DNA of 64,000 nt from Paracoccaceae bacterium. Lineage in GTDB: Bacteria; Pseudomonadota; Alphaproteobacteria; Rhodobacterales; Rhodobacteraceae. The notes under the pieces were generated by a model. The model had not been told where the DNA came from. It saw only the letters and a list, made by a program, of their open reading frames with translations, and made no database searches. Within the stretch, counting starts at the first letter, position 1. Each line of letters begins with the position of its first letter. Positions 44,678 through 47,890 of this stretch are shown here, in pieces. Made by a program: the position numbers and the translations under genes. Location: NCBI GenBank assembly GCA_027492585.1, contig JAPUEK010000049.1:1-64000 (forward strand). The letters run 5' to 3'.

Positions 44678-45364
44678 ATGGCGACGTTGCGGAAAATCCT
44701 GCTGGTGGACGACGACGACGATCTGCGCGAGGCGCTGAGCGAACAACTGGTGATGACCGAGGATTTCGATGTCTTCGAAGGCCGCACCGGCGCCGAAGGC
44801 ATGGAGAAGGTCAAGGCCGGGCTCTACGACCTTGTGATCCTCGACGTGGGCCTGCCCGATACCGACGGGCGCGAACTGTGCCGGCGGATGCGGAAGGCCG
44901 GGGTGAAATGCCCTGTCCTGATGCTCACGGGCCATGATTCCGACAGCGACACCATTCTGGGGCTCGATGCCGGGGCGAATGACTATGTGACCAAGCCCTT
45001 CAAGTTCCCGGTGCTTCTGGCCCGTATCCGCGCCCAGTTGCGCCAGCACGAGCAATCCGAGGATGCGGTCTTCCAGCTTGGCCCTTACACCTTCAAGCCC
45101 GCGCAGAAGGTGCTGGTCGATGCCAAGGACAAGAAGATCCGCCTGACGGAGAAAGAGACGAACATCCTGAAGTTCCTCTATCGGGCGCAGACAGGGGTGG
45201 TGGCGCGCGACGTGCTGCTGCACGAGGTCTGGGGCTACAATGCCGGGGTGACGACGCATACGCTCGAAACCCACATCTACAGGCTGCGCCAGAAGATCGA
45301 GAGCGATCCGTCCAACGCGCGTCTGCTGGTCACGGAAAGCGGTGGCTACAAGCTTGTTGCGTAG
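44678..45364 (+). CDS. OmpR/PhoB-family response regulator (CenR-like)
   Basis: A 228-aa two-domain regulator. The receiver domain has the acidic pocket DDDDD (11-15), phospho-acceptor D56 (LVILDVGLP), T84 and K106. The winged-helix DNA-binding domain spans about 131-226 ([32 protein letters not shown]). No kinase gene adjoins. The sequence closely fits the orphan regulator of R. sphaeroides known, as I recall, as CenR (RSP_0847), an essential envelope and division regulator; I leave the symbol open. GGAGG precedes the ATG. An sRNA-like unit follows its stop, as at the R. sphaeroides locus. Confidence 0.9.
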
Positions 45365-45424: not shown

Positions 45425-45525
45425 CATGCGGGGGCGCCCGCAGCCAGTTCCCCTTGCCGTGTCGGGGTCATGACACGGCACCTCCCTGTTGGACCTGGCC
45501 GGGCCTTGCGCCCGGCCTCTTTTTT
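45425..45525 (+). ncRNA. SorX-like 3'-UTR sRNA
   Basis: About 100 nt between the response-regulator gene and the convergent MFS gene. It folds as hairpin 1 (TGCGGG/CCCGCA, 45427-45442), hairpin 2 (GCCGTGTC/GACACGGC, 45456-45479), an unpaired pyrimidine-rich segment ACCTCCCTGTTGGA (45480-45493), and a Rho-independent terminator (GGCCGGGC/GCCCGGCC plus T-tract, 45497-45525). In R. sphaeroides the sRNA SorX comes from the 3' UTR of this type of OmpR-family gene and protects against singlet oxygen. The 5' end is approximate. The CUCCCU segment is a likely target-binding or anti-Shine-Dalgarno site. Confidence 0.65.
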
Positions 45526-46769
45526 CAGCGCAGCCGCAGGCGGAAGGCGGAATAGACCAGCAGGAGAACGGCGCCCGCGCAGGCGAGCGCATAGGGCAGA
45601 TGCAGCGCCTGATCGCCCAACGGGGCGGCAAGGGCCACCACCGCACCGCCGCAGAAGGCCCCGAGCGGATTGGTCCCGGTGCCGAAGAAGCGGTAGGCCG
45701 AGTTGACCCGGCCAAGCAGCGGCGCCGGGATGTGGCGCTGCCGGAAGCTGACCGTGGCGATGTTCCAGAGGAGTGCCGTGAAGGATTCCAGCGTCAGCGC
45801 CACGACGGTCAGCCAGACCGAGGAGCTGACCGCCAGCACGAGGCAGGAGGTCGCAAAGCCGCCGATCCCCACGAAAAGCGCCGCCGTCGCGCCGATCCGC
45901 CGGATGAGCGCCGGGCCGAAGAGGCTCCCCGCGAGCCCGCCCGCGGCCAAAACCGACAGCATCAGCCCGTAGCCCGTCGCATCGAGCCCGAGGATCCGCT
46001 GGCCGTAAAGCACCAGAATGGCCCAGGTCATGCTGGCGAGGAAGTTGAACGCGCCGAGCACGAAGGCAAGCCGGCGCAAGGTGCCATGCCGCCAGAGCCA
46101 GACCACCCCCTCCTTCAGCGCCGGCCAGAAGGATTGCGCCGCGCCGCGCGGCATCGGCCCGAGCCGGATCGCCGCGATCAGGGCGAGGGCAGCGGCCAGC
46201 ATCGCTGCCTGAAACCCGAAGGGCAGGGCGATGGACAGCCCGATCAGCAGCCCGGCCAGCGGCGGGCCGAGGAACTGGCCGCCGAGTTGCTCGGTGGTCC
46301 AGATCAGGCCGTTGGCCTTCTCCAGCCGTTCGGTGCCGATGGCCTGTGGCAGGATCGCCTGCCCGGTGTTGTCGCGCAGCACCTCAGCCATGCCGAGGGC
46401 GAAGGTCAAAGCGATCAGCAGACCGATGCCGCCGACCCCCTCCAGCACCACCGCCACGAGGCAGAGCGCAAGCATAAGCCGAAGCCCGTCGCACAGCAGG
46501 ATGAGCTTGCGGCGGTCGAAGCGGTCGGTAAGCACGCCGGCGGGAAGGGAAAACACCAGCCAGGGCAGTTGCCGGGCCGTGGCGACGAGGCCGATCAGAA
46601 ACGGGTCCCGGGTGATCAGCGTTGCGGCCCAGGGCAGGGCGACTGCGAGAATACCGTCGCCGAGGTTGGTAAAGGCGGAGGCCCCGAACAGGAAACCGAA
46701 ATTGCGGTTGCGCCAAAGCGGGGCGGGGGATTGACCGGCCTCAGGCCCGGTCGGCGGGATCGTCTTCAT
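45525..46769 (-). CDS. MFS transporter (EntS/MFS_3-like exporter)
   Basis: A 414-aa, 12-helix major facilitator. Motif A between helices 2 and 3 is AGVLTDRFDRRKLILL, and MAEVLRDNTGQAILPQ is the central helix 4-5 signature of MFS_3/EntS-type exporters. It probably exports a siderophore, drug or metabolite. I chose the ATG at 46769 (AGGA eight bases upstream), since the longer frame uses TTG and runs into the sRNA-rich upstream region. Its stop touches the terminator of one sRNA-like unit, and the second unit lies behind its start. Confidence 0.88.
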   Translation of the reverse strand: MKTIPPTGPEAGQSPAPLWRNRNFGFLFGASAFTNLGDGILAVALPWAATLITRDPFLIGLVATARQLPWLVFSLPAGVLTDRFDRRKLILLCDGLRLMLALCLVAVVLEGVGGIGLLIALTFALGMAEVLRDNTGQAILPQAIGTERLEKANGLIWTTEQLGGQFLGPPLAGLLIGLSIALPFGFQAAMLAAALALIAAIRLGPMPRGAAQSFWPALKEGVVWLWRHGTLRRLAFVLGAFNFLASMTWAILVLYGQRILGLDATGYGLMLSVLAAGGLAGSLFGPALIRRIGATAALFVGIGGFATSCLVLAVSSSVWLTVVALTLESFTALLWNIATVSFRQRHIPAPLLGRVNSAYRFFGTGTNPLGAFCGGAVVALAAPLGDQALHLPYALACAGAVLLLVYSAFRLRLR

Positions 46770-46889
46770 GGGCCGATCCTTGCCGATCCCCGACACAGGG
46801 TCAACCTGTGGCCGAAAAGCGATGATTGCAGGCAAATACAGGGGATTTTGCCGGAAATGCAGGCGGAGAGCCGGTTTTCGTGCTATCTG

Positions 46890-46941
46890 TTCTGAACCTC
46901 CCTGTTGGAACTGGCCCGGCGCTTCGTCGGGCTTTTCTTTT
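46890..46941 (+). ncRNA. Second SorX-like sRNA core with terminator
   Basis: The segment ACCTCCCTGTTGGA, an A for C, then CTGGCC (46896-46916) matches the SorX-like unit at 45480-45500 in 20 of 21 positions. A terminator follows directly (GCCCGGC, GCTTC loop, GTCGGGC, then TTTTCTTTT; 46914-46941). No plus-strand gene precedes it, because the MFS gene reads the other way, so the terminator implies a separate short transcript. The promoter is unclear; TATCTG at 46884-46889 could be a -10. It may start further upstream. Confidence 0.55.
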
Positions 46942-47101
46942 GCGGACAGCGCGGCGATAGCTTCCGAAAGCTCTGGCCTTCCGAAAGCTCTGGCATCGCC
47001 CCCGGCGCGCGTCTAGGTTTCAGGCCTGCGCCGATACGGCGCGCCCGTTAGGGACCCCGCTTCCGCGCTTCCGAGTCACGCGCCCTGCCACGAGGTTTGC
47101 C

Positions 47102-47890
47102 ATGCCCTTCACTCTCGCCACCTGGAACATCAACTCCGTCCGCCTGCGCGAGGGGCTGGTCGCCAGGCTCATGGCCGAGGAAGCGCCGGATGTGCTCTGC
47201 TTGCAGGAATGCAAGAGCCCGGTGGACATGATCCCGATGGAGCAGTTCCGGGCGCTCGGCTATACCCACATGGTCGCACGGGGCCAGAAGGGCTACAACG
47301 GCGTGGCGATCCTGTCGAAGCTGCCGATCACCGATGCGGGCGACCGCGATTATGCCAGCCTCGGCCATGCCCGCCATGTCGCGGCGCGGATGGAAAACGG
47401 GGTGGTCATCCACAATTGCTATGTCCCCGCCGGGGGCGACATTCCCGACCGCGAGCAGAATGTGAAATTCGGCCAGAAGCTCGATTTCCTGACCGAGATG
47501 CGCGACGCCTTCCGGGCGGACAGGCCGCAGAAGTCGATCCTCGTCGGCGATCTGAACATCGCCCCGCGCGAGGATGATGTGTGGAACCACAAGGCGCTTC
47601 TGAAGATCGTCAGCCACACGCCCATCGAGGTGGAGCATTTCACCGCCGCGCAGGAGGCGGGTTCCTGGGTCGATGTGACCCGCAAGGATATTCCCGCAGG
47701 CCTGCTCTATTCCTGGTGGTCCTACCGCAGCCCGGACTGGGACAGCGCCGACAAGGGCCGCCGGCTCGATCATGTCTGGGCGACGCCGGATATCGCCGGG
47801 GCCGCGCATGGCAGCCGGGTGCTGCGGGCGGTGCGGGGCTGGGACCAGCCCTCGGACCATGCGCCGGTTTTTGCGACGTTTGATCTCTGA
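47102..47890 (+). CDS. Exodeoxyribonuclease III
   Basis: A 262-aa ExoIII/APE-type AP endonuclease of base excision repair. The catalytic residues are visible: N in TWNINSVRLR, E in LQECKSP, D and N in VGDLNIAP, D in GRRLDHVWATPD and the D-H pair in WDQPSDHAPVFA. It has the usual family length. GAGG precedes the ATG at 47102. A lipoprotein gene follows at once (1 bp), so the two are probably co-transcribed. It lies behind the second sRNA-like unit. Confidence 0.95.
   Translation: MPFTLATWNINSVRLREGLVARLMAEEAPDVLCLQECKSPVDMIPMEQFRALGYTHMVARGQKGYNGVAILSKLPITDAGDRDYASLGHARHVAARMENGVVIHNCYVPAGGDIPDREQNVKFGQKLDFLTEMRDAFRADRPQKSILVGDLNIAPREDDVWNHKALLKIVSHTPIEVEHFTAAQEAGSWVDVTRKDIPAGLLYSWWSYRSPDWDSADKGRRLDHVWATPDIAGAAHGSRVLRAVRGWDQPSDHAPVFATFDL

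Follow-up and report, generated by a model that had tools for sequence, protein, structure and literature searches.

A second copy of the SorX seed beside SorX in a Paracoccaceae genome, predicted to be a free-standing small RNA gene

Two copies of one seed on either side of an MFS gene

The seed of the small RNA (sRNA) SorX occurs twice in the window, by which we mean the whole 64,000-nt stretch of DNA analysed here, and the second copy is probably an sRNA gene in its own right, which stands in tandem with its sibling SorX and would be read from an extended -10 promoter of its own into a seed-first RNA of about 46 nt. Both 21-nt cores lie on the plus strand, at 45480-45500 (ACCTCCCTGTTGGACCTGGCC) and at 46896-46916 (ACCTCCCTGTTGGAACTGGCC), with a spacing of 1416 nt, and are identical at 20 of 21 positions. 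When the whole 4.14 Mb genome was searched with ACCTCCCTGTTGGAN{0,3}CTGGCC, exact matches were found only at these two cores, and the reversed control pattern gave 0 matches. The 14-nt seed has a third copy in this genome, which is SorY-like (G000:C24:12996-13073) and scored 64 bits against RF02651 (cut-off 111).

SorX occupies 45450-45523 on the plus strand (RF02784, 84.3 bits as compared to a cut-off of 46.6), in the 3' region of an OmpR-type response regulator gene (44678-45364, plus strand; Pfam PF00072 and PF00486). Between SorX and the second copy lies an MFS gene on the minus strand (45525-46769; PF07690 and PF05977), and downstream of the second copy is an exonuclease III-type gene on the plus strand (47102-47890; PF03372), presumably xthA. 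The OmpR-type gene is thus separated from the second copy by a minus-strand gene and by SorX's own terminator. The original prediction that no plus-strand gene precedes the second copy was confirmed: the gene before it lies on the opposite strand, and the next gene on the plus strand starts at 47102. In R. sphaeroides, the OmpR-type gene is described as the host transcript of SorX (PMC8625941). Two head-to-tail copies of a 17-mer (CTTCCGAAAGCTCTGGC) were also seen at 46961-46994, between the second-copy sRNA and the exonuclease gene.

The predicted sRNA spans 46896-46941 on the plus strand, as judged from conservation, folding and the R1 model, and comprises seed, spacer and terminator. The seed (ACCTCCCTGTTGGA, 46896-46909, plus strand) is of the anti-Shine-Dalgarno type and is common to SorX and the SorY-like copy. 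The predicted intrinsic terminator (46913-46941, plus strand), picked up by a terminator scan and by folding, has a 9-pair stem at 46913-46933 and a T-rich tail of the TTTTCTTTT type; its stem and loop are unlike those of SorX, bearing out the claim that the two cores have terminators of their own which differ, and relatives keep the kind of terminator, not its sequence. The scan found 1 terminator in the region as compared to a shuffle mean of 0.8 and is, for that reason, weak evidence by itself. The predicted 46-nt RNA had a fold z of -2.41, with its first 11 nt unpaired, and scored 67 bits with the R1 model, the structure of which was drawn by hand and the training rows of which include the second copy and its relatives.

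Upstream of the seed, at 46881-46889 on the plus strand, lies an extended -10-like element (TGC TATCTG), at -15 to -7 from the first base of the seed; its position would start transcription at the seed and give an RNA of about 46 nt. The hexamer TATCTG matches TATAAT at 3 of 6 positions, and a sigma-70 scan at the window's second copy found no promoter. With such a -10, no sigma-70 promoter and a terminator near the shuffle level, the window provides one of the weaker examples of the locus. Its spacer holds one A more than that of most aligned rows (GGAACT after the seed, as compared to GGACT).

Relation to SorX, SorY and other known small RNAs

By Rfam thresholds the second copy is neither SorX nor SorY, though it has the seed in common with them. 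In a 331-base search it scored 34.9 bits against SorX (RF02784, cut-off 46.6; E 5.9e-07) and 35.9 bits against SorY (RF02651, cut-off 111; E 7.8e-06). Of the SorX-like character originally predicted, the seed ACCUCCCUGUUGGA followed by an intrinsic terminator stood, whereas the score against the SorX model stayed below its cut-off. The suhB/MmgR family also combines a pyrimidine-rich loop with a terminator. Its model (alpha-r8, RF00519), which had been proposed as a further check, gave no support, and this identity was rejected for the second copy at 12.3 bits against a cut-off of 41 (E 5.6).

The second copy resembles SorX in its identical 14-nt seed, in the terminator directly after it and in its neighbouring place within the interval of the same genes. 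It differs in that the 5' hairpin of SorX (present in 45450-45523) is missing from it in the alignment, in not standing behind a plus-strand gene and in having a promoter-like element of its own. With SorY it shares the identical seed and the free-standing arrangement, but its 5' part and its locus are different, the SorY-like copy being on contig C24; SorY is reported to have its own promoter (PMC6238624). Hfq binding and target regulation are described as established for SorX and SorY (PMC5036791, PMC9438474), and SorX of R. sphaeroides is described as RpoHI/RpoHII-dependent (PMC5036791). As in CcsR1-4 of R. sphaeroides and other sets of sibling sRNAs, several sRNAs have one pairing region in common; unlike CcsR1-4, reported to be co-transcribed behind ccaF1 (PMC8625941), SorX and the second copy seem to be separately driven.

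The experimental work on SorX and SorY that we encountered was from R. sphaeroides. The open-access literature, outside the scope of which the original SorX and SorY papers lay, yielded no description of the second-copy locus, in agreement with the suggestion that the paralogue may be undescribed. A literature search with the seed letters gave no match, and SorX did not appear by name among the matches listed for combinations of SorX, paralogues and the genera Tabrizicola, Gemmobacter and Pseudorhodobacter, which is no proof of absence from print. No link between FnrL and any SorX relative was found in the literature searched. Elsewhere in the genome, a weaker relative (L006, G000:C42:25033-25102) carries TTCCTCCCTGTCTGACTGGCC and a terminator and scored 29.8 bits to SorX and 23.1 to R1. 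A match on contig C13 was rejected as a relative, having no seed and merely a terminator behind an OmpA-like gene.

Conservation of the locus beside SorX

An orthologous locus was aligned beside SorX in 16 further genomes. A pattern of TGNTAT and the seed, with nine bases between them, was run against the named genome collection and gave 14 loci, from Tabrizicola sp. SY72, T. oligotrophica, Gemmobacter aestuarii, Xinfangfangia pollutisoli, Pseudogemmobacter bohemicus, Rhodobacter sp. SGA-6-6 and Har01, a Fuscovulum MAG, a Pseudorhodobacter MAG and five other MAGs, and each of the 14 has at least one of two neighbours, the OmpR gene with SorX and the exonuclease gene. These 14 (including G021 and G137), together with G311, G312 and the window, make up the 17 aligned genomes. 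The scan pattern had been shaped by the window, G021 and G137 and is carried by 15 of the 17 rows by construction, so that identity of the seed and of TGnTAT in these rows does not count as independent support; in G311 and G312, which a search with just the seed brought up, GGGTAT stands at the place of TGnTAT. Selection did not extend to gene order, the position beside SorX, an upstream ATTC, the terminator or the FNR-type box. Throughout the aligned rows TAT starts 12 nt before the first base of the seed, so that the -10 hexamer would lie at -12 to -7 if transcription started there. RNAalifold on this alignment (A1) gave 6 pairs, none of them changed on both sides, and terminator stems and loops vary in length. 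Conservation of the core in relatives, which had been set beforehand as a point on which the prediction could fail, was observed: the seed is kept in the 16 other genomes with varied terminators, although most of them were found via the seed, its identity being partly by construction. The place next to SorX was, however, no part of the selection, and there are copies in which the seed has degenerated (L109, L092).

The MFS gene between the two seeds is present in 8 of the 17 genomes and absent in 8, the contig starting too late in the remaining one; the second-copy locus is therefore independent of the MFS gene. The fixed spacing of the -10-like element and the relatives devoid of the MFS gene support, as far as sequence goes, the claim of a free-standing unit. 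Most aligned relatives, with or without the MFS gene, have an element of the form CAAyC...GrTTGTGrCCrAAAAACCATG about 60-95 nt before the seed, and its version in the window (about 46790-46830) has diverged.

The recurrent order in the family is a riboflavin-type gene (minus strand), the OmpR-type gene, the seed and the exonuclease III-type gene. The order OmpR gene, seed, exonuclease gene was found in 9 of 20 stretches in one set and in 14 of 20 in another, the remaining stretches either ending too early or having no seed within one mismatch. Most such stretches have one seed, carrying SorX's 5' hairpin, and in R. sphaeroides SorX is alone in the OmpR-exonuclease interval; the second, hairpin-less seed was first met in G021 and G137. 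An R1 search of 394 family genomes (E <= 1e-6) found at least one seed-plus-terminator match in 364, SorX and SorY types included, and added the second-copy loci L142, L148, L166 and L169. The seed of the second copy is imperfect in L092 (one change) and in L109 (degenerate).

Alternative explanations

In 13 of the 17 genomes no more than 210 nt separate the exonuclease gene from the seed, and sometimes the gene starts about 40 nt past the terminator, which leaves little room for another promoter. The second copy could accordingly be the leader or attenuator of that gene, with the promoter belonging to the gene, the terminator being conditional and the short RNA a by-product. We regard this as unlikely, since the gene is 535-664 nt from the seed in three relatives (RIFC, Gaest and PseuRb) and was not found in the approximately 1.1 kb of contig after the seed in a fourth (MAG50), and an attenuator would not need the same 14-mer as SorX and the SorY-like copy.

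We likewise consider it quite unlikely that, in this genome, the second copy is a SorX duplicate in decay, which used to function but is no longer transcribed. Its seed and terminator are intact, and it scored 67 bits to R1, a model that includes it; the missing FNR-type box (6/10), the weak -10 and the extra A after the seed are what such decay would account for, and degenerate copies are known elsewhere (L109, L092). That the seed merely happens to match beside an ordinary terminator is improbable in the extreme. Seed-plus-terminator matches are indeed common (the 364 of 394 family genomes) and the terminator here is not above shuffles, but the reversed control gave 0 matches in this genome and in every genome row of the seed scan, and the conserved position beside SorX in 16 other genomes contradicts chance. 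A free-standing sibling of SorX is the reading that we follow below.

An FNR-type box upstream of the seed

We scored the FNR-type box as TTGAT-N4-ATCAA with a threshold of at least 9/10. Of the 16 rows with sufficient sequence, 7 have such a box with its centre 40-42 nt before the seed, as compared to 6 in 32,000 shuffles, an arrangement resembling that of class II FnrL promoters with their box near -41. The other 9 of the 16 loci had no good box. The window differs from class II promoters, its best score at the second copy being 6/10, with no box near -41.5. Boxes of the TTGAT-N4-ATCAA form are reported to be bound by FnrL in R. sphaeroides (PMC2908626) and in R. capsulatus (PMC4634722), and PcrZ and PcrX are named as FnrL-regulated sRNAs (PMC8307010). 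No MFS gene stands between SorX and the box in VGDH, RIFC and Tobar (three of the seven boxed rows), nor is there one in Gaest; the box does not, therefore, serve the MFS gene there. In L092 and at L109 3601-3681, a perfectly matching FNR-type box (TTGATCCCCGTCAA, TTGATTTGCGTCAA) lies at the usual distance from the imperfect seed.

With an R/Y-tolerant score, a box was found no more than 120 nt ahead of a seed in 24 of 77 distinct OmpR loci, which are pattern and model matches and no random sample; the background was 27 in 275,107 positions. The spacing from box to seed was 39-44 nt in 11 loci, where the seeds lack SorX's hairpin (script count), and 69-79 nt in 12 loci, where they lie behind it, the single locus at 48 being L088. 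In the longer class the box is mostly about 38-42 nt from the position of SorX's mature 5' end in R. sphaeroides, with L103 (about 48) and L086 (about 44) as outliers. Exceptions are L088, L154 and L157, where the box is 42-48 nt upstream of a hairpin-bearing seed; L154 and L157 were missed by the script. SorX of R. sphaeroides and SorX of the window have no box at the R/Y-tolerant threshold. In other genera, hairpin-bearing SorX has a 10/10 box in the OmpR-SorX gap, about 70-80 nt upstream of the seed (loci including L076, L102, L103, L110, L054, L055, L158, L160, L161, L164 and L100), which suggests that SorX may have a promoter of its own there.

Possible mode of action and targets

The sibling would have an extended -10 promoter of its own, with transcription beginning at the seed's first base or right beside it and ending at the intrinsic terminator, so that the resulting RNA of about 46 nt would carry the anti-Shine-Dalgarno seed at its 5' end. 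Judging from SorX and SorY, it would work together with Hfq, blocking ribosome binding on mRNAs with AACAGGGAG or a similar sequence in the ribosome site, the best candidate being a potA-type polyamine transporter gene. A common seed fits common targets, as far as pairing can be predicted, and the second copy would likely block ribosome sites in the same way, driven by another promoter.

SorX is reported to block translation of potA (PMC9438474). Our search for the potA family gave many ABC ATPases; 27 of 30 loci were scored and one orthologue group of six was examined closely. This potA-type group has a ribosome site that complements the seed, reading AACAGGGAGCGAG in SY72 and GACAGGGAGCGAG in the window's genome, and is a candidate target of the second copy. 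Duplexes in the six genomes ranged from -15.4 to -19.9 kcal/mol, with z of -1.3 to -3.2 against 500 shuffled seeds, for a group that was picked after inspection and a match of which the Shine-Dalgarno itself makes up part. The R. sphaeroides duplex contains a bulge, and this member need not be the paralogue under SorX control. An exact 10-nt seed complement before ATG gave 20 matches in 8 genomes, with no target common to different genomes. Five of them (L173, L175, L176, L182 and L187) were rejected as the antisense of sRNA loci, by coordinates or sequence; the other 15, with gene names assigned by eye, include a DeoR-type regulator in the window's own genome (L174).

Since their promoter regions differ, SorX and the second copy would seem to serve different inputs rather than being simply redundant, and the same pairing sequence behind its own start signal could deliver one regulatory message under a different condition. 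The FNR-type box found about 41 nt upstream in several related genera would bring the sibling there under oxygen control, whereas stress sigma factors govern SorX and SorY. No such box is present in the window's organism. More tentatively, and with slightly less than even confidence, we propose that in Rhodobacteraceae at least three separately wired sRNA genes share one seed, SorX and SorY reporting singlet-oxygen and related stress and the sibling (along with SorX in other genera) being induced by FnrL at low oxygen, such that oxygen at either extreme would lead to silencing of the same transporter mRNAs. If FNR control is true, oxygen limitation and photo-oxidative stress would be linked through the SorX regulon. 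That a third locus is conserved points to the seed as the unit of selection, reused behind different promoters, and the predicted RNA, if real, would add a very short sRNA with a pairing region that runs from its first base onward.

History of the locus

A quick tree was built from the OmpR and exonuclease proteins of 57 loci, near-duplicates among them (L016/L052; L051/L074), and left 24 of 54 inner branches open. Of the 19 loci with two or more seeds, 18 fell in one branch of 24 rows (SH-aLRT 92). The multi-seed label required 7 changes on the tree as compared to 16.1 in shuffles, none of 500 being as low; the hairpin label was a crude script rule. R. sphaeroides (L098, G067), for which a SorX coordinate of 2,598,224 is published (PMC6238624), lies inside this branch with one seed, which fits a loss there, among several possible histories. 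Two hairpin-bearing SorX copies stand in tandem, 140-223 nt apart, in L048 (G022), L100 (G164) and L101 (G299). This is a duplication other than that in the window, and tandem duplication may therefore have occurred more than once.
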